Assembly: GCA_903929355.1 (NCBI GenBank)
Contig: CAIYUN010000049.1
Location: 1-35,077, forward strand
Direction of reading: 5' to 3'
DNA from: an uncultured Opitutaceae bacterium
GTDB lineage: Bacteria > Verrucomicrobiota > Verrucomicrobiia > Opitutales > Opitutaceae
Length of the DNA: 35,077 bases
Under the pieces are notes generated by a model, which did not search any database, was not told the DNA's origin, and saw nothing but the letters and a program-made list of their open reading frames with translations. Made by a program: the position numbers and the translations under genes. Position 1 is the stretch's first letter. Every line of letters begins with the position of its first letter. Below are positions 13,459-31,885 of the stretch, piece after piece.

Positions 13459-14355
13459 CCCCTCTTTGACGTAACCCTGCGCGTCGGCTGCAGCCTCGTC
13501 TATGAGGTCACCGGTTCCGCCACGCTGCTGCTGAACGTGCGGCCCCGGCCCGACCGTCGCCATGCGGTGCTGGCGGAGACATTCACGCTTGGCGACCACC
13601 TGCGGGCGGAGGAGTTTGAGGACAGCCACGGCAACCGCGTCCACCGGCTGGCGCTGAGGTCCGGCCGCAACGAGATCCGCCACGACGCGCTGGTCGCCAT
13701 CAGTTCGCGGCCCGACAACCACGAGCTGACCGTTGTCCCGCCTGCGTCCATCGGCGAGCTGCCGCCCCAGCTCCTGCGTTACACGCTGCCCAGCCGTTAT
13801 TGCGATTCCGACAAGCTCACCAACTTCGCCTGGCAGCAGTTTGGCCAGGTTCAGCACGGCTGGCCCCGCGTGCAGGCCATCAGCGAGTGGGTGCACCGCA
13901 ACATCGAATATCGCTACATGTCCGGCCATCCCAGCCTCTCCGCCGGGGATGTGCTCTCGCGCGGGTACGGCGTGTGCCGGGATTTCGCGCATCTCGCGAT
14001 CGCGCTCAACCGCACCTTCAACATCCCCGCGCGCTACATCACCGGGCACCTGCCCGACATCGGTTTTCCCGACCCCGACAATCACATGGACTTCCATGCC
14101 TACGCCGAGGTCTGGCTCGGGGACCATTGGTTCACGACCGACGCGCGCTTCCATGTGCCACGCATCGGCCGGGTCACGGTTTCCTGCGGGCAGGACGCGG
14201 TGGACGGCGCGTTTTCCACGATCTATGGCGGCGCGACCTTGTCGTGGTTCCAGGTCTGGGCCTACCAGGTCGCCCCTCACACGGTGCAGGTCGGCGACCC
14301 GCTCGATTTCTCCCGCCGGCTGGACAATCGCTGGGAGATTGCGACGAACCGCTGA
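13459..14355 (+). CDS. Transglutaminase-like protease fold protein, 5' end unresolved
   Basis: The core holds the Cys-His-Asp set of the transglutaminase superfamily: Cys in GYGVCRDFAHLAIAL, His in MDFHAYAEVW and Asp in WFTTDARF. An N-terminal beta domain (FDVTLRVGCSLVYEV, LLLNVRPRPD) is clearly coding before GTG 13537. Yet no ATG, GTG or TTG occurs in this frame between the stop at 13321 and 13537. An ATG at 13409 is in another frame. So either a single-base change shifted the frame near 13410-13460 or a rare start (CTG, ATT) is used. Bacterial relatives are often proteases or amidases acting on peptides, and the substrate here is unknown. It converges with cobA-hemD, with stop codons 7 bp apart. 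Confidence 0.85.
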   Translation, partial: PLFDVTLRVGCSLVYEVTGSATLLLNVRPRPDRRHAVLAETFTLGDHLRAEEFEDSHGNRVHRLALRSGRNEIRHDALVAISSRPDNHELTVVPPASIGELPPQLLRYTLPSRYCDSDKLTNFAWQQFGQVQHGWPRVQAISEWVHRNIEYRYMSGHPSLSAGDVLSRGYGVCRDFAHLAIALNRTFNIPARYITGHLPDIGFPDPDNHMDFHAYAEVWLGDHWFTTDARFHVPRIGRVTVSCGQDAVDGAFSTIYGGATLSWFQVWAYQVAPHTVQVGDPLDFSRRLDNRWEIATNR

Positions 14356-14362
14356 GGGCGGA

Positions 14363-15889
14363 TTATTCCTTGAGCTTCTTGGCCAACGCGGCCACCAGCG
14401 CTTCCAGGCTGGGCTTCTTTGCGGTGAAATCCACCGCCATCCCGAGTTCCTCCATCGTCCCGCTGGTCTGCGGGCCGATGCTGCCGGCGAGCGGGCGTTT
14501 CGCTTCCTTGGCGAGCTGGAGCGATTTGGCCTGGGTGTGAAACGACTGCACGGCCGACGAGCTCGCGAACAGGATCGCGTCGGCTCCGTGCTGCCGGAAG
14601 TCGTCGGCGACCGGGTCGCTGGCGAGATCGGTCCGCTCCGTGCGGTAGAGCGGCAGGCGATCCACGATGGCGCGGGCCGCCTCGAGTTTCTTCACCAGCG
14701 TGTCGCGGTTGAGGCTCCCGCAGACCACGATGACCTTGGCGTTGTCCAGGCTGCCGGTGGCGATGAGCGCGTCGGCCAGCGATTCGCCCGTGGCGGTTGC
14801 GGGCTGGCATTCGATCTTGAGATGGTGCCTGGCGATTTCGCGGGCCGTCGCCGCGCCCACACAGGCGAAGCGCAGCCCGCCCAGCGCGCGCACGTCCCCG
14901 AAGCCCTTGAAGAACTCCTCAAAGAAGAACCGCACCCCGTTGGCGCTGGTGAACACGATCCAGTCATAGCTGCCCAGTTCGGTGAGGATCTCGATCAGCC
15001 CGTCCTTGCTCACGTCCTTGGTCACGCGGATCAGCGGCAGCTCCAGCACCTCGGCCCCCCGCGCCTCCAGTTGGTCGCGCAGCTCGCTGTTCTGGTCGCG
15101 CGTGCGGGTGATGGCAACCCGGCGGCCGTAAAGCGGCAGGTGTTCGAACCAGTCGATGGCCTCGTGGTTCTTCACCACCTCGCCGACAAAGATGATCGCC
15201 GGCGCGGCCAGCCCCGCCTTTTCGACCAGTCCGGCCAGTGTGGCGGCGGTGCCGGCGACGGTGCGCTGGCGGCCGAGCGAAGCCCATTGTACGACGGCGG
15301 CGGGGGTGGCGGGGGCGAGCCCGCCGGCCACCAGTTCGGCCAGGATGTGGCGCAGGTGCCCCATGCCCATGTAAATGGCCAGCGTGGCGTGCTTGAGCGC
15401 GCCGTAGGCGCGCCAGTCCACCTGCGGGCCGGGCTTCGCGGGGTCCTCGTGTCCGGTGAGAAAAATCAGCGCCGGGCTGGTGTGGCGCTGCGTGAGCGGG
15501 ATGCCCGCGTAGGCGCCGGCGGCGAGCGCGGCGGTGACCCCCGGCACGATCTCAAACGCGACCCTGGCTTTCGCCAGCGCCTGCGCCTCCTCGCCCCCGC
15601 GGCCAAAGATGAGCGGGTCGCCGCCCTTCAGTCGCACCACCGTTTTTCCCGCTTGGGCGTGTTTGACCAGGAGGGACTCGATCTCTGCCTGGGGCAGGCT
15701 GTGGCAGCCGGCCGTCTTGCCCGCATAGACGATCTCGCATTCGGGTCGGCACCATTTAAGCAGATCAGGGTGCACGAGGTGGTCATGGACCAACACGTCG
15801 GCCAGGGCGATGAGCTCGCGGGCGCGGCAGGTGACGAGGCCGGGTTCGCCGGGACCGGCGCCGACAAGATGGACGATGCCTTGGGACAT
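14363..15889 (-). CDS. cobA-hemD: Fused uroporphyrinogen-III methyltransferase/synthase
   Basis: The 508-residue protein joins two enzymes. Residues about 1-245 are SUMT (CobA), with VHLVGAGPGEPGLVT, VVRLKGGDPLIFGRGGEEA, EIVPGVTAALAAGAYAGIPL and IYMGMG. They add two methyl groups from S-adenosylmethionine to uroporphyrinogen III to give precorrin-2. Residues about 255-508 are uroporphyrinogen-III synthase (HemD), with RRVAITRTRDQNSEL, DWIVFTSANGVRFF and ADAILFASSSAVQSF. They close the tetrapyrrole ring that the methyltransferase half then uses. The fusion places product of one half beside the other and is known in several bacterial groups. hemC lies just upstream on the same strand, so the two supply consecutive steps. 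Confidence 0.95.
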   Translation of the reverse strand: MSQGIVHLVGAGPGEPGLVTCRARELIALADVLVHDHLVHPDLLKWCRPECEIVYAGKTAGCHSLPQAEIESLLVKHAQAGKTVVRLKGGDPLIFGRGGEEAQALAKARVAFEIVPGVTAALAAGAYAGIPLTQRHTSPALIFLTGHEDPAKPGPQVDWRAYGALKHATLAIYMGMGHLRHILAELVAGGLAPATPAAVVQWASLGRQRTVAGTAATLAGLVEKAGLAAPAIIFVGEVVKNHEAIDWFEHLPLYGRRVAITRTRDQNSELRDQLEARGAEVLELPLIRVTKDVSKDGLIEILTELGSYDWIVFTSANGVRFFFEEFFKGFGDVRALGGLRFACVGAATAREIARHHLKIECQPATATGESLADALIATGSLDNAKVIVVCGSLNRDTLVKKLEAARAIVDRLPLYRTERTDLASDPVADDFRQHGADAILFASSSAVQSFHTQAKSLQLAKEAKRPLAGSIGPQTSGTMEELGMAVDFTAKKPSLEALVAALAKKLKE

Positions 15890-18605: not shown

Positions 18606-18873
18606 GGAAAGGGTGGGGGGGTGGGATCCGCCTACGCTCGTGGAGCTTGGGCGTGACAAGAGGGAAAGGGAGGGAGGGAAAAGGAGACGGTTGGTTTGAG
18701 AAGCGGTGGGACGGGAAAGGGGGAGAGGGAGGGTGAAGTGAAAATGAAAATTGGCCGGCTTGCCAACCGAATGTTTGCACCGAATAAGCAGGAGACGGAT
18801 CTCCGCACGGCCCAAAGGTGTCGGTCCCGAGATGCGCCCATTCCCGGATGCAGCGCGAGGTCCGGCTTGAAGC
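18606..18873. other. Purine-rich gap upstream of ilvN
   Basis: No gene is seen. Positions 18655-18740 are strongly purine-biased (GGGAGGGAGGGAAAAGGAG on the plus strand, hence pyrimidine-rich in the ilvN leader). The ilvN-ilvC promoter should be here, but no clear boxes were found, and I saw no leader peptide with a run of branched-chain codons. Confidence 0.4.
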
Positions 18874-19470
18874 TCAAAACGGCAACTGGATCCAAGTAGC
18901 TCTGGGCTGCTGTCCTTTCAAGCCTTCGAGAACTTGGAATTGGATCCAAACCGTCTGGCGACCAAACAACGCCCCGGTCACGAGGCTGGTCAGCGCTACA
19001 AAAGTCTGCGCCATGGCTGGTGATGGTTTACCGCTGGAAGCTTCAAGCACTTCAAAGTCGGCCACCACGCCGTCCGCCTCCGCCCTGAATAAGAGCTGTG
19101 GCGTCGGACTGTCTGTAACCCTGATCGCGGTGATGACCCCCTTGAACAAGCCGTCGCTCGACAACGGGTTCACCTCTCCATGGTAAGCAGGCGGAATGGC
19201 CATGGCAGTCACGGCGTCGTCCATGCCGGGCACAGGCACATGATCAATTCCTGTGTCACGCCCGGTCAACGAAGCCGCGGTGGCCAGGACGGTCATGGCT
19301 CCAAAAACCTCTGGTTGGACGCTGCCCGTGAACACGGAGGACACATTGCTGTTGGCCGTGTAGCCGTTGATGAGGAGCTGGACGGAGCCTGGGCCGGCAG
19401 CCAGGACGCTAAGCTTGGAAATCCGGCCAATGAAGGTGGGCATGGGCCGGGAAACTTGACCTCCACCCAT
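18874..19470 (-). CDS. Unrecognised protein next to the left attachment site
   Basis: A reading frame of 198 residues from ATG 19470 contains ordered, beta-rich sequence (LSVLAAGPGSVQLLINGYTA, SVFTGSVQPEVFGAMTVLA, GIDHVPVPGMDD, ITAIRVTDSPTPQLLFRAEA). It has no motif I recognise. ATG 19443 and a UUG at 19485 are other possible starts, none with a well-placed ribosome-binding site. A second open frame in another phase (from ATG about 19597 down to 19409, beginning MLFNNYLKIHYIQVTTLG) leads into it, so the gene may have lost its 5' part through a frameshift. It lies just outside the element boundary at 19596. It may be a remnant of an earlier insertion, perhaps phage-derived, but that is a guess. 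Confidence 0.5.
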   Translation of the reverse strand: MGGGQVSRPMPTFIGRISKLSVLAAGPGSVQLLINGYTANSNVSSVFTGSVQPEVFGAMTVLATAASLTGRDTGIDHVPVPGMDDAVTAMAIPPAYHGEVNPLSSDGLFKGVITAIRVTDSPTPQLLFRAEADGVVADFEVLEASSGKPSPAMAQTFVALTSLVTGALFGRQTVWIQFQVLEGLKGQQPRATWIQLPF

Positions 19471-19595
19471 GATGGTCAAATCCAAAAGGCGTCTTCATCG
19501 CCGCCGAGCTGCGGTGGGCAATACGCTCGGGAAAATCCGCTGCACCCAGTGTGGTCACCTGGATATAATGTATTTTCAAGTAGTTGTTAAACAAC

Positions 19596-19621
19596 ATGGT
19601 GGACGGCGAGGGACTCGAACC
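19596..19621. repeat. Left attachment site (attL), copy of the tRNA-Val 3' end
   Basis: These 26 bp are identical to 25488-25513, which is the 3' end of tRNA-Val including CCA and most of the T arm. Only this fragment is present here, not a whole tRNA. An identical tRNA-end fragment about 5.9 kb from the intact tRNA is the standard mark of site-specific integration. Confidence 0.88.
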
Positions 19622-20022
19622 TCGTTCCACTGGGGAAGCTAAGTCGCTGGGAAACGTGGACTTAGTTATGGGTTAGTGTTTTAGAACGGGAACCAACAAG
19701 CCAGCAGGAGAAGCGAAAGCAAACGAAATCCGGCGAAATTCATCACTTTTGGCAACCTTCTGGCAACCTTGGCGGGCCCCGCCGGAACATGATCCAAGCC
19801 ACCGCCGCCGAAAGCCGGCCATGCGTATCCGGGCGATGGAGGGAATTCGAAAATGGGGCGTGGGGTGGCTTGTGTGCGGGTACCGGGGGGGGGAGGGTCG
19901 GGGGGCGTTGGCCTCGAATCGACCCGATGGATACGCACTCGGGAGATTTCGGACAAAAAGAGGTCGCGGTTTTGGTGCATGGGCGGCGTGCAGCGCGGGC
20001 TCGCGACTGACGGCTTGTCTGA
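19622..20022. other. Left end of the element without a credible gene
   Basis: Several open frames exist on both strands, but none has convincing composition or a recognisable motif. The only clear structure is the pair of direct repeats at 19750-19770. The stretch 19880-19905 is a G-rich run. Confidence 0.5.
19750..19770 (+). promoter_or_regulatory. Two TGGCAACCTT direct repeats, probable integrase arm sites
   Basis: TGGCAACCTT occurs at 19750-19759 and again at 19761-19770, one base apart. TGGCAACCT also occurs as an inverted pair at 25421-25445 near the other boundary. Placement at both ends of an integrated element fits arm-type sites bound by the N-terminal domain of a tyrosine integrase. 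Confidence 0.65.
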
Positions 20023-20214
20023 CGCACCTGTCTGGGCTTTGGCACCCCGTCGGTTTCGAGCGATGAACCGGCCTATCGGGAGATCGGCTGCGATTGCACG
20101 CTCTTTGCCGATGTGGCCTCAAGCGCCAGCGCCGTGCAAAGGCTCAAAACCGAACGGGAGCTTTATCAGCGCCTGCGGGCCAACTGTCTGGCCACCTTGA
20201 CCGACCTGTGCTGA
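20023..20214 (+). pseudogene. Probable C-terminal gene fragment
   Basis: After a stop at 20020-20022, the plus strand stays open for 63 codons and ends with TGA at 20212. The last part has protein-like, helix-forming composition (SSDEPAYREIGCDCTLF, SASAVQRLKTERELYQRLRA), quite unlike the surroundings. No start codon suits it, and I do not recognise the family. It is best seen as the tail of a gene whose front was lost. Confidence 0.4.
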
Positions 20215-20378
20215 ATCACCCCGCCGCGATGTCCTGCCCAAAATAGATCGCCAGCCAGAACGTGGCGGGGGCAATTGTGGGATCCATGTCGAGCCCCAGT
20301 TCAGTAAGCGACCGACGGCCGACCTACTATCCGGCGCGGGCGCGGCCGTGTAAGCTGCGGGGATGGCAATCATCACAG

Positions 20379-21271
20379 CTACGAGCGGGCGCCACTCCGC
20401 TCCGAGCCGCGCACCGTGCCGGCGGCGACGTTCGCCCACCTGCCGGTGCAGGAGACCATCACGATGCCGGCGCGGGCCAGCTTGGAGGAGTCGAGCAGGC
20501 AGTTGGACCGGGGTGTTTTGGCGGCGAGACGCATGAACTCGGTCTCATCGCGGAAAAAGACAAACTCCTTGGGACAGATTCCGCTCGCCTTGATGAGGTC
20601 GGTCACCTCGCGGGTGGTGATGTGACCGAGATTGGTGCAATGATAGGTGCCGAAAGGCGCGCGTTTCTCCCAGCAGGCAAAGGTGGCGGTGACAAACTCA
20701 TGCAGTTCGCTGATCGAATTGGCCGCGTCCAGCAGTTGGTCATAGCGCATGAGCTTGCTCAGATAGTTGCGCGGATTGTCCAGATGCGAAAACGGCATCC
20801 GGGGGCGCCAGATGAAAACCTCCGGGTAGCCCGTCAGCACCTCCTCGCCCAAGGCCTTGGTTCCGCTGTAAAACGAACCACCCCCGGCGCGAAAGGTGAA
20901 ATTAGGCGGATCTTCCTCGCGATAACCGTCCCCGGTGCCCCCCGGGCCATTGTAAATGCAGCCGGAGGAAACATGCCCCCACGGCACTCCGGCAGCGGCG
21001 CAGGCCTCCGCGATGCGACCGGGCAATACTGCATTGGCGGCCAGGCATTCCGCTTTGCGCGTTTCGCAGGCATCCACGTTGGGCTTGCCGGTGAAGCCAG
21101 CGACATTGATCAGAAACTCCGGTCGTCCACGACGGAGGGTTTCCAGCAGCACCGCTTGATCGGTGTAGTCGGTCTCGGTGCGTTGCAACGCCTTGAAGGG
21201 AATCTCCCTGCTTCGAAACAACGCCGCATAAGCTTGCCCAGATAGCCCGAACCGCCGAGGAGGTAGATCAT
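20379..21271 (-). pseudogene. Broken dTDP-4-dehydrorhamnose reductase-like gene
   Basis: The frame from ATG 21271 starts MIYLLGGSGYLGKL, a proper short-chain-dehydrogenase nucleotide-binding loop. It then loses phase near 21235, where the conserved sequence continues in another frame (FRSREIPFKALQRTETDYTD). One missing base in the AAGCTT region would restore it. The rest matches RmlD-like reductases: LINVAGFTGKPNVDACE, HVSSGCIY, the catalytic SFYSGTKALGE (Tyr and Lys) and VFIWRPRMPFSHLDNPRNYL. Similarity ends around SNCLLDSSKLARAGI (about 20465). The last 30 codons look random, so the C-terminus is also lost. It would have acted in nucleotide-sugar synthesis and is cargo or a stray remnant in the element. 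Confidence 0.75.
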
Positions 21272-21540
21272 GACGCCTGCCAGCCTATCGGGTCATTTAC
21301 CGCCCTCAAGTCGGAACTTCCCGTGGAGAAAGGTGAGCCAGCTACGCGCGCGGTGAGGAAATTGGCTGGTGAGAACTGGGCGGAGAATTAGACGAGCTTA
21401 AAGAAAGGAAGGGACCTGTGAGGATGGACCTGGCGCTGGGATGGGAGGGTCCGGTGGGCCACACGTTGGAGGTGGCAGACCGGTTGAGGCGGAGGGGCGG
21501 ACGCACAAAAGGAGGGACAGGCGAGGTGGCGTTATTGAAT
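21272..21540. other. Spacer within the element
   Basis: No gene or clear structure is visible between the broken reductase gene and the DUF3102-like stop. The DNA is purine-rich on the plus strand. Confidence 0.4.
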
Positions 21541-22092
21541 CTAGGGTGGGATGTCGGACGGTTCGCGGGAGAGTTGGGCGTGGAGGCGCGCGAACCATTT
21601 GAGTTCGTGGCTCAGGGAGCGCCGGGCCTCGGGTGTCCAGCGGTCGAGGGGAAGTTCGGTGGTGCGGCGGTGAAACCAGCGGCGGAACTGGTCGAGCCCG
21701 CGAACAAAGCAGACGGTGGGCGACGTGGCACCGGGTGAGCGACGACGATGCGGGGGAGTGGTGAAGACCCCAGTCGCAAGGTACGCCTGGCGGAGACCCT
21801 TGGCGTCGGTGAGCCCGGCTGTGCCAGCGCGGCGGGCAAGCATCATGTACCGGCGGGTGGTCGGGAGCGAAATGGCCGGACAGTTGGCAGCAAGCCACTG
21901 CTGCCAGCGGCCGTGCCCGATGGCGGCTTTTTGACGGTTGAGCAGGTGCCCGCACTCTAGGGCGCGGGTGACGGCCTGACGGGCAGTGAGGGTGGCCGAG
22001 CCGGCCATGGAGTGCGCTTCGTGGAAAGCGGCGTTGATCTCCGCGGACAGGTTGACGGCGGCGCTGGGATCAGGCGGCGTGGTCGTGTTCAT
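21541..22092 (-). CDS. DUF3102-like protein of the element
   Basis: This 183-residue protein starts at ATG 22092 and overlaps the end of the upstream gene by 23 bp, so the two are likely cotranscribed and coupled. The segment INAAFHEAHSMAGSATLTAR followed by ALECGHLLNRQKAAIGHG, RWQQWLAANCPAISLPTTRR and YMMLARRAG matches the DUF3102 pattern. That domain is common on phages and islands, often near replication or partition genes, and has no established activity. The basic, tryptophan-rich C-terminal part (FVRGLDQFRRWFHRR) may contact nucleic acid. The assignment is by eye. Confidence 0.7.
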   Translation of the reverse strand: MNTTTPPDPSAAVNLSAEINAAFHEAHSMAGSATLTARQAVTRALECGHLLNRQKAAIGHGRWQQWLAANCPAISLPTTRRYMMLARRAGTAGLTDAKGLRQAYLATGVFTTPPHRRRSPGATSPTVCFVRGLDQFRRWFHRRTTELPLDRWTPEARRSLSHELKWFARLHAQLSREPSDIPP

Positions 22093-22669
22093 GGTGTTTG
22101 GCGAGGTAGGCGAGGCGGGCCTCCCGGTGCGCCTGGCGAGCCCGGTGGGAGCGCATGCCGCGGGAGGGCGGGAGGCCAAAGGTGTCGGCCATTTGAACGG
22201 CGAGCTTGGAAAAGGCGGCGGGGGTGACGCCGTGCCGGGCGGCAAGGGCGGCTTGGCTCAAGCCCTCCACCGCCATGAGGCCGGTGGCGAAACAGATGGC
22301 GTCCAAGGCAAGCAGCGGGTTGGGGTGCGAACGGATACGGGCACAGAATGACGCCAGAGCGTCGGCGGCGGCGTGGGCGTGGTCTCGCTCAGGAACGGCA
22401 GGCGAGGCTGTGGAATCAACCGCGCGAGGCCTTGGCGTGGCCTCTGCGCCGGCATCGAAATCGTGGGGTTGTTCCGGGTCTGCGGCGGCCGTGATGGCGA
22501 GGATATGGGCATCGCCCTGGCGGGTGGAGGTGCGGCGGACGGTGTTGGGCGCGGCAAGCCCCTGGGCAGCAAGTCGGGCGCGCTCCTCGGGTGGCAGGGA
22601 CGCGACCCACGCCCGATAGGCGCTGGAATAGGTGGCGTCGCGAGCAGCCTGGTGGTCGGCGTAACTCAT
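22070..22669 (-). CDS. Putative HTH protein of the element
   Basis: This 199-residue protein starts at ATG 22669. The N-terminal third is charged and helical (YRAWVASLPPEERARLAAQG), and the middle is low-complexity. The last third holds a likely helix-turn-helix, LSQAALAARHGVTPAAFSKL, followed by MADTFGLPPSRGMRS and a basic, His-rich end. It starts 43 bp from a large inverted repeat (22712-22759), which could be its operator. A role as a regulator or replication accessory of the element is inferred from this layout. I do not recognise a named family. Confidence 0.65.
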   Translation of the reverse strand: MSYADHQAARDATYSSAYRAWVASLPPEERARLAAQGLAAPNTVRRTSTRQGDAHILAITAAADPEQPHDFDAGAEATPRPRAVDSTASPAVPERDHAHAAADALASFCARIRSHPNPLLALDAICFATGLMAVEGLSQAALAARHGVTPAAFSKLAVQMADTFGLPPSRGMRSHRARQAHREARLAYLAKHHEHDHAA

Positions 22670-22711
22670 GGCGCGGCCTTCGTGGGGGTGAGGTGGTGCG
22701 GTTCGCCCTCC

Positions 22712-22759
22712 ACTCCGACACTCCGGCCCCTATACATAGGGGCCTCGGAGTGCCGGAGT
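22712..22759. promoter_or_regulatory. Long inverted repeat, candidate operator or origin
   Basis: The arms span 22712-22759. The inner 9 bp (GGCCCCTAT/ATAGGGGCC) pair perfectly around a 2-nt loop. After a 2-nt bulge come two further 6-bp helices with one mismatch between them, so about 21 bp pair on each side. The unit ACTCCG/CGGAGT occurs four times within it. It lies between the HTH-like gene start and the helicase stop. Confidence 0.65.
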
Positions 22760-22818
22760 TGGACGGGCAGGCAACTCCGAATCGGAGGCAAAACAGAGCG
22801 GTTTCGGAGTTCGGAGTT
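22760..22818. repeat. CGGAGT iterations next to the inverted repeat
   Basis: CTCCGAATCGGAG at about 22776-22788 is a short palindrome of the same unit. The tandem TTTCGGAGTTCGGAGTT at 22802-22818 ends against the helicase stop codon. Iterated copies beside a replication module would suit iterons. The tandem also belongs to a heptamer family seen elsewhere (946-962). Confidence 0.5.
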
Positions 22819-23915
22819 CATGGGCGCTTTACCGAATAAGACCCGAAGGCATCGCGGGAGATGACGCCGAGGCGCCGCAGATCACTGATGACCTCCGACG
22901 CGGTGCTCTCTACGCAGGCTCGCACCTTCATGATTCCAGCCCTCATTTCGGTCCATCGCAGTGGGGACTTGGTCGCGAAAACCTCGTCGGCCAGTTCAAT
23001 AAGGTCGGTGCGCTTCCGGTCATCTTTGCTGGCCGCCTTCGATTTGGTGGAAATGTGCATCCCGGCCTCGGTGCTCCAAGTGAAGCACGGGGCTTTGTCG
23101 CCGGAGACCTCGGCGTGGCGGGCGGGTTGGCAGGTGATGCTGATGACGCCGTCGGCCTTGCGCAGGACCAGGACAGATTCCGATTTGCGCTCAAGCTGGC
23201 TGCCGAGGTGACCCCGCGATTTCTCACTTCCAGGGTTGTGGTGCAGCGCCACGACGACGACACACGCGGTATCGCTCGCGAACTGATGCAACGCGCCGAC
23301 CAGGCCGTTGGCCTCCTCCGGCTCGTTCACGTCTTGCACGAGGTCAGCCACGCCGTCGATGAAGAGCGCGAGCAGACCGCCGTCGTCGGCGGCGCGGCGG
23401 GCCATCGCCATGATGACGGCGCGACGCTCAGCCGGATCAAGGCGAACCAAGGAGTAACTGGCGAACCAGGTGGGAGGTTTTTCAATTCCAGCGCGACGCA
23501 ACCCGATCATCATCATCTCGTGGTGGTCGCCCCGGCTTTGCTCGGTGTCGAAATGGAAGACCCATTTGCCCTCGGGATTGTGGCCCTCGAAACCGAGATA
23601 ATCGCCGGAGGCCGAGCCGAATAGCGACGCGAGCATGGCGACTTTGGCAGAGGACTTGCCGGATTTAACGGCGGCGACCAAGGTGACGATGTTCCCCGGG
23701 TGCGCGATTTCGTTTCCGGCCAGCTTGAAAATACACGGCTCCTTGGGTGGAGGGTTGGTCGGATCGAACCGCGTCTTCTCGACCTCCGTGATGAGGGCGG
23801 CCAGCTTGGGGTTGAGTGCGGGCGGGGCCGGTGGTTTGGCCGCCGGGGCCGAGGGAAGTGGGCCGGTCGCAGCGCCGGTTGCCCCAACAGGTTGTGAGTA
23901 TGCTTTCTTGGGCAT
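22818..23915 (-). CDS. RepA-like RecA-fold replicative helicase
   Basis: This 365-residue protein starts at ATG 23915, with GGAGG about seven bases upstream. It has Walker A IVTLVAAVKSGKSSAK, Walker B LLALFIDGVADLVQDV, and the segment CVVVVALHHNPGSEKSRGHL with a sensor-type histidine pair. This is the layout of RepA/AAA_25 hexameric helicases of plasmids and islands. The N-terminal 35 residues are Pro/Ala-rich. The C-terminus (MRAGIMKVRACVESTASEVI, then SDLRRLGVISRD) resembles a small winged-helix. It lies 13 bp downstream of the primase-like gene, so the two form a replication module. Confidence 0.8.
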   Translation of the reverse strand: MPKKAYSQPVGATGAATGPLPSAPAAKPPAPPALNPKLAALITEVEKTRFDPTNPPPKEPCIFKLAGNEIAHPGNIVTLVAAVKSGKSSAKVAMLASLFGSASGDYLGFEGHNPEGKWVFHFDTEQSRGDHHEMMMIGLRRAGIEKPPTWFASYSLVRLDPAERRAVIMAMARRAADDGGLLALFIDGVADLVQDVNEPEEANGLVGALHQFASDTACVVVVALHHNPGSEKSRGHLGSQLERKSESVLVLRKADGVISITCQPARHAEVSGDKAPCFTWSTEAGMHISTKSKAASKDDRKRTDLIELADEVFATKSPLRWTEMRAGIMKVRACVESTASEVISDLRRLGVISRDAFGSYSVKRP

Positions 23916-23928
23916 GATACGCCTCCGG

Positions 23929-24900
23929 TTACATCCCCTCAAAGACCAGGCTGGACTCGTCGGATTCATCGCCGCCGGACGCGGCGAAGACCTCGGCAAG
24001 GTCCTTGAATGGCGGCAGAATCGTGAAACCATCAACAATGGCGCCTGCCTCACGAAGCTGAGCCGCCCAGCGGATGCCAGCTTTCACGCCAGCAAGGTCG
24101 GCCTGCTCGAAAATCCGGCCGCGCTTGTCTTTGAAAAGGGGAAGCGCGTCGGTATGGATGGCGGCGGACTCGCCCGGCATGCAGACGAAGGCCATGGTGT
24201 CGTCCCTCTCGGCGAGCCAGGCCAGCCCGTGCGCTGCCAAGAAGTCGGGGCCGCCTGGGCACAAGCAGAACAATGGATAAATTGCGATGGTGTCGGCGCC
24301 AATCGGCCAATTGGCCTGACTGCCCCCCAACGTCCAGGCCTTGGCGCCATTCCAGGACCAAGGCTGTCCATCTAGGCGGCGAACCTGCACCGAGCGCCGG
24401 GTCGAGTCCGTAATGGCCCAGGCGCGACGCAGGATGCCGTCGTCGAGCATGGTGCAGACATGCAGCAGGCCGCGGCAGAGCGCGACCTCCATACCGCCCA
24501 CAGTCGGCCAGTGCCGGACGGATCGAATCATCTCCAAGTCCGCACTCGTTGGATGGGTGAGGTCGTCTGGGATGCGTAGGTTCTTTTTGGCGGCGGCTGC
24601 GACCGGGGCCGGGGCCGGCGCCAACCCTGCAAGGCGGATCACCTCGCGGGCGGCCTCGCTGAGGGAGCATTGCTTGGCCCGGGCCACGAAGGCGACGACG
24701 TCACCGGCGTCGCCGGTGGCGAAATCGTGGAAGACCTGCCCATCGGCCCGGATGGAGAAGGAAGCGTTACGGTCCTCGCGGAACGGTGAACGGCAGATGA
24801 GCTTGGGAGCGCCGGGAAGGCCCAGAAGGTGCCAGGCGGCAAAGATGGTGAGGCGGGCTTTGGCTAGGTCGAGCGGGGAGGGGCCGGAAGAGGAATTCAT
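23929..24900 (-). CDS. Primase-like protein of the element
   Basis: This 323-residue protein has an N-terminal segment (APKLICRSPFREDRNASFSI, then VFHDFATGDAGDVVAFVARA) like the CHC2 zinc-finger region of DnaG-type primases. Only one clear cysteine of the ligand set is left. The C-terminal half has alternating hydrophobic strands (DTMAFVCMPGESAAIHTDAL, DGFTILPPFKDLAEVF) where a Toprim fold would be expected, but the acidic motifs are not obvious. Pairing with a RepA-like helicase 13 bp downstream supports a replication role. The start is ATG 24900. Replication initiator of another type is possible. Confidence 0.7.
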   Translation of the reverse strand: MNSSSGPSPLDLAKARLTIFAAWHLLGLPGAPKLICRSPFREDRNASFSIRADGQVFHDFATGDAGDVVAFVARAKQCSLSEAAREVIRLAGLAPAPAPVAAAAKKNLRIPDDLTHPTSADLEMIRSVRHWPTVGGMEVALCRGLLHVCTMLDDGILRRAWAITDSTRRSVQVRRLDGQPWSWNGAKAWTLGGSQANWPIGADTIAIYPLFCLCPGGPDFLAAHGLAWLAERDDTMAFVCMPGESAAIHTDALPLFKDKRGRIFEQADLAGVKAGIRWAAQLREAGAIVDGFTILPPFKDLAEVFAASGGDESDESSLVFEGM

Positions 24901-24913
24901 ATACCCTCAAAGG

Positions 24914-24923
24914 GGTAATTACC
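24914..24923. promoter_or_regulatory. GGTAATTACC palindrome, copy 1
   Basis: This perfect 10-bp AT-rich palindrome, stated in full in the call, lies 14 bp upstream of the primase-like start. The same palindrome occurs at 25025-25034. Its location fits an operator over the primase-helicase promoter. Confidence 0.5.
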
Positions 24924-24940
24924 AAAAGGCGGGCGTGAAA

Positions 24941-24969
24941 AAGGCCGCTTGTTTCATTCAAGCGGCCTT
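24941..24969 (-). terminator. Rho-independent terminator
   Basis: Perfect 11-bp arms (AAGGCCGCTTG and CAAGCGGCCTT) with a 7-nt loop are followed on the minus strand by a five-T run. It begins 12 bp after the small ORF stop at 24981 and would end transcripts from the integrase fragment before the primase-like gene. Confidence 0.85.
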
Positions 24970-24980
24970 ATGCGAGTGGT

Positions 24981-25124
24981 TTAAGAATCTTCGGGTGATT
25001 CCTCCGGTTGCTCAGGAGGCCCCTGGTAATTACCAAACGGGGTCTGGTATCGCTCCTCCTCGCGTCGGAGTTTGAAGAGGGGCCAAAATCCATGGACCCG
25101 GATTCTTTTACCGGCTCGCGCCAC
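24981..25124 (-). CDS. Small ORF after the integrase fragment
   Basis: A 47-residue frame starts at GTG 25124, four bases after the stop of the integrase fragment, with GAGGAG about 13 bases upstream. It ends just before a strong terminator. The product would be basic at the start (ARAGKRIRVHGFWPLFKLRRE) and acidic at the end (PPEQPEESPEDS). It may be a real small protein, for example an excisionase-like or regulatory factor, or a leftover of the deleted integrase in another frame. No family is recognised. Confidence 0.4.
   Translation of the reverse strand: MARAGKRIRVHGFWPLFKLRREEERYQTPFGNYQGPPEQPEESPEDS
25025..25034. promoter_or_regulatory. GGTAATTACC palindrome, copy 2
   Basis: This is identical to 24914-24923 and lies 111 bp from it, on the other side of the terminator and inside the small ORF. 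Confidence 0.45.
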
Positions 25125-25128
25125 CCAG

Positions 25129-25416
25129 TTACCGGTCTCCTCGAATGCGAGGCCCTTGCGGGCTGTCCTTGAGCCGACGGAACGAGGCCTCGGCCTCGCG
25201 GAGCTGGTCGTTCGTCAGGAAGGTGGTCGCGGAGCGGATGCAGCCGGCGGTTTCCTGGAGGGCCTGAATCTCCAACACGGACTTTTCGGCCACCGCCTCG
25301 GCCTTGGATTTGAAGTTTTTGCGGATGCGGACGCCGGCCAAAAAGCCGGACACCCGCCAGGAGGCAACGCCGTTGCGGTTCTTGAATTCAGACAGGGCAA
25401 ACGTGGACTGGGTCAT
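25129..25416 (-). pseudogene. N-terminal fragment of a tyrosine integrase
   Basis: The 95-residue frame (start ATG 25416) reads FALSEFKNRNGVASWRVSGF, then AGVRIRKNFKSKAEAVAEKS and FLTNDQLREAEASFRRL. It resembles the arm-DNA-binding and core-binding start of tyrosine recombinases from this group of bacteria. It stops soon after, so the catalytic domain with the R-H-R-Y residues is missing and is not found elsewhere in the element. It lies next to tRNA-Val, where the integrase of such elements normally sits. Probable arm sites are just upstream of its start (25421-25445). It could still bind DNA but cannot recombine. A small regulatory protein derived from an integrase is the alternative. Confidence 0.65.
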
Positions 25417-25420
25417 GTTT

Positions 25421-25445
25421 AGGTTGCCACATCAACTGGCAACCT
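25421..25445. promoter_or_regulatory. Inverted TGGCAACCT pair, probable integrase arm sites
   Basis: AGGTTGCCA (25421-25429) and TGGCAACCT (25437-25445) are perfect 9-bp arms around 7 bp. The pair lies four bases upstream of the integrase fragment start, so binding could also repress that promoter. The motif recurs at 19750-19770. Confidence 0.65.
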
Positions 25446-25487
25446 AGCTACCCCCTGAATTTAAGTGGCTGGTTGAAAGCCTCTTGA

Positions 25488-25513
25488 ATGGTGGACGGCG
25501 AGGGACTCGAACC
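25488..25513. repeat. Right attachment site (attR) in tRNA-Val
   Basis: This 26-bp identical repeat of 19596-19621 overlaps the 3' end of tRNA-Val. Insertion rebuilt the tRNA, so the gene stays whole. Confidence 0.88.
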
Positions 25514-25565
25514 CCCGACCCCCTCGGTGTAAGCGAGATGCTCTAACCAACTGAGCTAGCCGTCC
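25489..25565 (-). tRNA. tRNA-Val (anticodon UAC)
   Basis: A full cloverleaf is present: acceptor GGACGGC with GCCGTCC, D stem GCTC/GAGC, anticodon loop CTTACAC and the T loop TTCGAGT. CCA is encoded in the DNA at 25491-25489. The length is 77 with CCA. The anticodon UAC reads valine GUA and GUG codons. The gene serves as the integration target of the element to its left. Confidence 0.95.
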
Positions 25566-31651: not shown

Positions 31652-31675
31652 ACTTTCGGCCGCAGGCCGAAAGTT
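31651..31675 (+). repeat. Hairpin directly after tRNA-Ala
   Basis: Perfect 10-bp arms AACTTTCGGC and GCCGAAAGTT with a 5-nt loop start at the last base of the tRNA. There is no T-run, so it may mark the 3' processing region or be part of the repeat that follows. Confidence 0.6.
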
Positions 31676-31885
31676 GCCGCGCCGACGTGTCCGCCACAGC
31701 CTTGGCGACGGTGGAAGCCAGGCGAAGGCGGGCCGTCTCCGTCAACTACGGCTCGGCGAGCCGTCGCTTGGTGTCGGCCGCAGGCCGAAAGTTGCCGCGC
31801 CGACCTGTCCGCCATCCTCCGCGCGGAAGCCTGGCTTGCGCTCCATAGCCTGGGCGAAGGAGCGGCGACGGTGGAAGCCTGATGG
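31652..31885. repeat. Repeat cluster downstream of tRNA-Ala
   Basis: A 41-bp block at 31656-31696 recurs at 31774-31814 with one mismatch. A 16-bp word at 31704-31719 recurs at 31864-31879. A 14-bp word at 31698-31711 is repeated in reverse at 18020-18033. Pieces of the family therefore lie more than 13 kb apart. No gene is seen from 31652 to 32049. Confidence 0.75.

Follow-up and report, generated by a model that had tools for sequence, protein, structure and literature searches.

Capsid-forming phage-inducible chromosomal islands (cfPICIs) were reportedly described by Alqurainy et al. in 2023. One review presents them as satellites which make their own capsids, of three distinct capsid clades (PMC11389934); the elements named PICMI are summarised as minimal satellites adjoining fis in Vibrionaceae (PMC10803314), and the Streptomyces satellite phages Mulch and Flayer as encoding encapsidation machinery and being without key replication genes (PMC10690885). 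For the Opitutaceae, the available text on the Lacunisphaera chromosome reports incomplete prophage regions alone (PMC5303756). Our subject here is a stretch of 35,077 nucleotides (the window), the entire contig C49 of a draft genome from an uncultured Opitutaceae bacterium (G000; 3.8 Mb, 91 contigs, 96% complete), in which a short element is integrated at a tRNA-Val gene. We consider this element to be, in all likelihood, a decayed and internally deleted copy of larger islands which integrate at tRNA genes and carry capsid and packaging genes. The first-pass annotation of the window had proposed an undescribed mobile element family, which stands in so far as the titles and abstract openings of literature on Verrucomicrobiota and Opitutaceae satellites and prophages, most subscription journals being outside the search, held no account of such islands, and falls in so far as the window copy itself appears to be a relic of that larger family.

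The likeness to cfPICIs, as outlined in that account, belongs to the relatives of the window copy rather than to the copy itself and is drawn from gene content, not sequence: the islands hold an integrase, replication genes and their own terminase, portal, protease and capsid, with no recognisable tail genes. They differ in their Verrucomicrobiota host, in their tRNA-Ser, tRNA-Glu and tRNA-Val sites, in a size of 29-40 kb which includes a variable cargo arm of 6-19 kb, and in a replication module that is swapped between members. If the absence of tails is real, the islands may work as cfPICIs do. The window copy has attachment (att) sites and no full integrase, and no terminase, portal, protease or capsid genes of its own were found, such genes being present in all eight islands of genomes G075, G235 and G013 and partly in G134. 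Being short, integrated, of few genes and without capsid genes, it recalls PICIs and PICMI as these are summarised, from which it differs in having neither a full integrase nor an excisionase and in having closest kin that carry capsid genes; PICMI is the best match to the idea put forward in the first-pass annotation, yet the window copy falls short of it in its integrase. Mulch and Flayer, to the extent that their account describes them, are alike to the islands in encapsidation genes, whereas the islands carry replication-type genes. Six window proteins scanned against Pfam and PHROGs showed no structural family, nor was there any match to island head genes, as a complete tailed prophage would require, and the same six proteins include no relaxase or mating-pair family of an integrative mobilisable or conjugative element.

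The element is bounded by two exact copies of a 26-bp direct repeat, 5,892 bp apart, one on the outer side forming its right end (19596-19621) and one on the tRNA side (25488-25513), in an intact tRNA-Val(tac) gene on the minus strand (25489-25565, ARAGORN), precisely as the first-pass annotation had it for a region of about 5.9 kb. Such a pair is expected by chance ~1.6e-6 times in the window under a simple composition model, and the two copies are the only full 26-bp matches in the whole source genome. Six genomes of the genus were compared, the source genome among them, and tRNA-Val was found in five. On the ilvN side, which is syntenic in all four congeners having the tRNA, similarity stops short of the tRNA 3' end by 32-36 bp in G001 and G079, where the same tRNA stands by ilvN without the element; the corresponding gap is ~190 bp in G102, 2.2 kb in G050 (holding an unrelated 701-aa open-reading frame, ORF) and 6.9 kb in the window, made up of ~980 bp, the outer repeat and then the element. 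The asd side has no match at the tRNA-Val loci of the congeners, so the comparison is confined largely to the ilvN side, plus ~55 bp past the tRNA in three of the four. Empty sites, which the first-pass annotation had suggested looking for, therefore exist in G001 and G079, and they support insertion of the element at tRNA-Val. At its left end lies an inverted repeat (TAGGTTGCCA-N7-TGGCAACCTA, 25420-25446), also found before the integrase gene (int) of a second island in the source genome, which may serve as an integrase arm site.

Two further observations concern repeats and insertions around this site. The stretch of ~980 bp that separates ilvN from the outer repeat (18613-19595) is absent in G001 and G079; it holds a 203-aa ORF without a Pfam family and may be what an older insertion left behind. 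The window has just three other sets of exact direct repeats at least 20 bases long: near 4.16 kb a tandem array, then a 20-mer (14749/16486) and, just downstream of a tRNA-Ala(cgc) gene, a 31-mer (31656-31686 and 31774-31804, copies 118 bp apart).

Reading inwards from the tRNA, the minus strand carries an integrase stub, a primase, a RepA-like ATPase, a helix-turn-helix (HTH)-like gene and a DUF3102 gene. Pfam matches and an integrase alignment bear out this part of the first-pass gene list, which had missed two features, a remnant of an accessory gene (Y') and a frameshifted RmlD gene. The stub (95 aa, 25129-25416) is without the catalytic part; its residues 1-82 are homologous to the complete integrases of relatives (406-458 aa; 408 aa in the second island of the source genome), versions which the first-pass annotation had thought worth seeking, and its residues 1 to 82-87 share 57-67% identity with the two closest of them. 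The C-terminal Y' remnant (24981-25154, minus strand; tblastn E 1e-7 to 1e-5), in a different frame from the stub, aligns with the ends of ORFs in four islands, 385-386 aa long in G013, G235b and G235e and 428 aa long in G235c, and in G235b and G013 the full Y' ORF directly precedes the replication genes. Between this remnant and the primase, a hairpin followed by T's (24941-24969, minus strand) reads as terminator-like. The primase-like gene (23929-24900; PF01807, 1.9e-8) combines a zinc-less CHC2-like and a TOPRIM-like region, with Pro in the EG.PD motif where five close relatives and eight further aligned rows have Glu, which we take to be the catalytic Glu of TOPRIM. Upstream of it the palindrome GGTAATTACC occurs twice, at 24914-24923 and, inside the Y' remnant, at 25025-25034; the copies are possible operator or origin repeats. 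The RepA-like ATPase (22818-23921) matches AAA_25 at 1.5e-4, under the Pfam cut-off, the HTH-like gene (22070-22669) has no Pfam family, and the DUF3102 match (21541-22092) is just below the cut-off at 7e-5. The first-pass annotation had also reported no capsid, portal, relaxase or conjugation genes, in agreement with our scans, which found no capsid, relaxase or conjugation family among the six proteins; at E 1e-8 the window holds no match to the packaging and head proteins of the islands, and none to their excisionase (xis).

RepA matches were found in 26 of the 252 genomes of the family (E 1e-15) and in 14 of the 273 genomes of an order-wide sample (E 1e-30), three of these being Opitutaceae, with no match in the five other genomes of the genus. 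Matching loci number 52 in the genome collection and 78 in the collection of viral contigs, the latter from the best 80 of 153 places obtained with an alignment query, a single-sequence query of the viral contigs having found nothing. The closest relatives, L038 (G098), L040 with L068 (G134), L075 (G195) and the IMG/VR contigs L140, L141 and L142, share the window gene order as far as their contigs reach. The integrase stub, primase, RepA, HTH and DUF3102 genes of the window match the left arms of L038, L140 and L142 in order, and L038, L140, L141 and L142 continue into genes for the small and large terminase subunits (TerS, TerL), portal, protease, a phrog_673 protein and the major head or capsid protein (MCP). 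PHROG E-values are 4e-37 for TerL, 6e-63 for the portal, 3e-17 for the protease, 3e-9 for phrog_673 and 2e-36 for MCP in L140, and 3e-19 for TerS in L141 (the scan took in proteins of L140, L141, L038 and L040; head and packaging genes of L038, L141 and L142 were assigned by similarity). L075 stops with its contig, and MCP lies on two other contigs of G195. Between xis and the replication genes is a two-gene slot filled either by a QatC-like pair (QatC model, 1e-52 in L038 and 3e-54 in L068) or by an X/Y pair without a named family; the X/Y pair of L037 has no Pfam, PADLOC or NCBIfam match, X having a weak PHROG match of unknown function, and AlphaFold models of the G235b pair were unusable (mean pLDDT 42 and 59).

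The same kinship appears in trees, gene distribution and the far end of the element. In a tree of 81 RepA sequences the window groups with L037 of G024 (99/87), and both nest in a nine-row clade (100/99) which contains all five capsid-labelled rows, a label that requires a close match inside the fetched locus and that distant capsid types would escape. The HTH gene was found in 14 of the 252 family genomes, and 11 of the 13 others have MCP somewhere; the remaining two are G134, with TerL and portal beside the HTH gene, and G189 (79% complete), which is not among the MCP matches. HTH and DUF3102 occur in just seven of the 81 distinct RepA loci listed, the window included, all of them in the capsid-island clade. 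The right end of the window element (19597-19776), compared with nine right ends of island stretches reaching att, matches those of G491, G075a, G235d, G235e and G235b (E 3e-17 to 5e-9, 63-68% identity) and more weakly those of G075b and G013 (0.002 and 0.005), the matched ends lying just inside their att, whilst none of 23 control stretches of equal length from the window matched.

Measured against these relatives, the window copy is missing the excisionase, most of the accessory pair and everything from TerS to near the right end. Its small size would be the product of internal deletions, because the same gene order elsewhere is the left arm of capsid islands, which measure 29-40 kb where both ends are known. 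One deletion would have joined the end of Y' to int at codon ~82, with its junction at about 25155-25170, since the last Y' codons sit between the stub and the primase. A second would begin shortly after DUF3102 and reach nearly to the right end, and its junction probably lies between 21387 and 21271, because the last short match to the second island of the source genome (21387-21420, minus strand, by DNA comparison) ends at 21387. A frameshifted fragment of a host-type gene of the RmlD family (20379-21271, minus strand, Pfam) now occupies this place; genes 67-69% identical to it were found in G079 and G121, two of the five further members of the genus, beside genes which, to judge from their sequence, presumably encode sugar-nucleotide-type enzymes. 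In a comparison of the window with its sister L037, with L140 as outgroup, there were 100 unique changes in the window and 63 in the sister (chi-square 8.4, primase, RepA and integrase stub combined), with a chi-square of 5.9 for RepA and non-significant values for the primase (1.3) and the stub (2.0). We infer that the copy is a relic, unable to excise by itself. What remains of the first-pass reading is an element integrated at tRNA-Val with replication genes; that it is naturally compact and self-contained does not hold, given an integrase without its catalytic part and no excisionase found. A similar gutted copy was seen on contig C16 of G098 (L234, 5095-6002), where remnants of an integrase N-terminus and an MCP C-terminus lie side by side at a tRNA-Ser(gct).

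MCP was found in 33 of the 252 family genomes (E 1e-6), with close copies in G075 (two, on one contig), G235 (five, on three contigs) and G013 (one, on one contig); G235 holds two more at 48-49% identity. TerS, TerL, portal, protease, the phrog_673 protein and MCP are all present in each of the eight close islands, seven of which are bounded by repeats of tRNA 3' ends: tRNA-Glu(ttc) (25 bp repeat, spacing 37.1 kb; 32 bp, 39.4 kb), tRNA-Ser(cga) (12+12 bp, 37.2 kb; 37 bp, 38.1 kb), tRNA-Ser(tga) (25 bp, 29.3 kb), tRNA-Ser(gct) (18+13 bp, 40.3 kb) and tRNA-Ser(gga) (30 bp, 40.0 kb). The G013 island has no clean boundary repeat. A second integrase follows both it and G235b, and in the tandem islands L270 (G013) and L279 (contig C1 of G235) a second integrase with xis stands directly after the right end of the first island. 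In several copies MCP is followed by the same two small ORFs, of about 65 and 64 aa. The replication module differs within the family, since primase and RepA queries gave no match in any of the eight close islands and the three which were read in detail have what is presumably another replication-type gene set in that place, its genes being named from motifs.

From this gene content we propose how a full island may live. Its tyrosine integrase would insert it into a tRNA 3' end, excision would involve an Xis-like HTH protein, and replication would start from the swappable module; TerS, TerL, portal, protease and major head protein would then package the island into its own heads. Tails would probably be borrowed from a helper phage, as in capsid-forming PICIs, which is proposed because no tail module is recognisable in the islands, and the leftover room would carry defence or metal-efflux cargo.

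The strongest competing explanation, which we nevertheless think unlikely, is that the relatives are tailed temperate phages of the usual kind, their tail genes unrecognised, and the window an ordinary defective prophage. The head and packaging genes are phage genes, and 29-40 kb is a usual phage size. They moreover have relatives in a Mu-like prophage carried by contig C81 of the source genome (about 50-88 kb, L296-L298), whose TerL, portal and protease are 41%, 34% and 44% identical to the island genes and which differs in having transposase and DNA-transposition genes and unmatched genes downstream of its head. Five ORFs of this prophage in that downstream region (53.7-62.6 kb) gave no PHROG tail match either (four had none, one was of unknown function). 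Against this explanation, 11 of its ORFs (53.1-65.7 kb) are unmatched in the islands, whereas TerL, portal and protease match, and the right arms of the islands, beyond MCP, are 6-19 kb long and mostly differ from one island to the next, whereas the six head and packaging genes are present in all eight close islands. Among 133 proteins from 13 arms, five of them ending at contig ends, 72 have no homologue in other islands, 43 have one in one island, 14 in two, four in three and none in more. One arm opens with SspB (7e-91), four arm proteins match PLD-helicase, DrmD, DpdE and HmaA models, the G235a arm carries a transposase-like gene, and other arms presumably hold type I restriction, DUF499/DUF1156 systems and metal efflux, to judge from their motifs. 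The model scans of the arms (PHROGs and defence models) took in 112 of the 133 proteins; no tail family was among the 25 most-matched of 148 PHROGs, or among the hits of ten proteins from the arms of G235a and G235b. Our initial candidate of complete tailed phages was weakened once the regions beyond MCP proved to be largely unshared cargo, and the absence of a shared module across the arms is a better argument for tail-less islands than the PHROG results. The C81 prophage is a possible tail donor. Queried with island MCP and portal, the source genome gave just two matches, the Mu-like portal on C81 and a 24% MCP match on contig C68.

A second island in the source genome raises another alternative, that the window element is a mobilisable deletion derivative which a resident island moves in trans with its integrase, excisionase and capsids, and which would thereby parasitise the islands, a proposal which we rate as improbable. 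This second island (contig C22, 40151-51166; L289, L290) ends with its contig where packaging genes would begin, and encodes a full-length integrase, a 76-aa Xis, a QatC-like pair and, in the replication slot, another protein, of 769 aa. Its HTH and DUF3102 proteins are 81% and 85% identical to those of the window (DNA 82% over both) and its left end is 73% identical, so that a complete int and xis are at hand for an element which has kept both of its att sites and ends and whose replication ORFs are open. The window copy has, however, a frameshifted RmlD gene inside it, has lost the TOPRIM Glu and changes faster than its sister; the short form was seen in no second genome; the C22 island has no tRNA beside it; and an action of its integrase on tRNA-Val sites would have to be assumed. 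An even smaller chance would go to the short element being a living parasite of capsid islands, excised, copied and packaged by the C22 island, which would itself rely on a helper such as the C81 prophage.

Compact tRNA elements of the kind envisaged in the first-pass annotation, with full-length integrase-type genes, do exist in the Opitutaceae, in other lineages than the window copy. Five of them (L043:4175-10111, 5.9 kb; L044:7471-14126, 6.7 kb; L045:5837-11338, 5.5 kb; L079:6102-14273; L081:6617-12931, 6.3 kb) span 5.5-8.2 kb and have repeats of tRNA-Gly, Leu, Arg, Asn and Val 3' ends at their bounds; they carry a RepA-like and an integrase-type gene (Pfam-tested in L043 alone), those of L043-L045 also a primase-like gene, and no island capsid genes were seen in them. 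L043, L044, L045 and L081 would thus be models for a window element that was primarily a compact satellite of integrase, HTH, RepA and primase with later damage to its integrase. This we judge very improbable: the RepA of L081 stands elsewhere in the tree and that of L043-L045 is just 18-20% identical to the window's, HTH and DUF3102 are confined to the capsid-clade loci, and the Y' remnant and right end belong to islands. Kinship with the compact tRNA satellites was accordingly abandoned in the light of the RepA tree, of where HTH and DUF3102 occur and of the Y' remnant. In a further, 10.4-kb tRNA-Cys element (L046), a TerS-like gene was observed at 13832-14380 (phrog_57, 7e-10), with no TerL noticed among the ORFs; a terminase small subunit without TerL is a trait of PICIs. 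An assembly or binning artefact is scarcely credible, for although the draft has 91 contigs and the asd side is unmatched at congener tRNA-Val loci, the ilvN side is syntenic in all four congeners, both repeats lie on one contig, and the ends and interior of the element agree with independent genomes.

Several observations nonetheless weigh against the window element being a decayed capsid island, or against the tail-less nature of its parents. The four replication and regulatory ORFs remain open, which would allow for selection on part of the element. Its RepA sister, L037 in G024, also has no HTH, DUF3102 or capsid genes, so the sub-clade of the two might have lost those genes long ago and lived without them; neither a tRNA nor boundary repeats were seen at the L037 locus. 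L040 has TerS, TerL and portal, with no protease or MCP on its contig and no MCP match in its genome (G134), so packaging genes do not always come with a complete head module in these relatives. The right ends of G235a and G235c do not match that of the window, and the exact parent is not among the islands seen, because RepA, primase and Y' derive from different island sub-types. The missing PHROG tail matches are weak evidence, because the C81 ORFs downstream of the head gave no tail match, which leaves the tail-less reading resting on arms that share no common module.

The family of full islands deserves study more than the relic in the window. Three genomes of one to three contigs contain eight islands at tRNA genes which bear capsid genes and are apparently tail-less, with a mostly copy-specific cargo that includes Ssp, QatC-like and PLD-helicase systems by model and, presumably, restriction and metal efflux by motifs. 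As copies with both ends known are present in near-complete genomes, the satellite reading is testable. If the islands are satellites, capsid-forming satellites would extend to the Verrucomicrobiota, and the islands would be a concrete vehicle for defence genes in this phylum.

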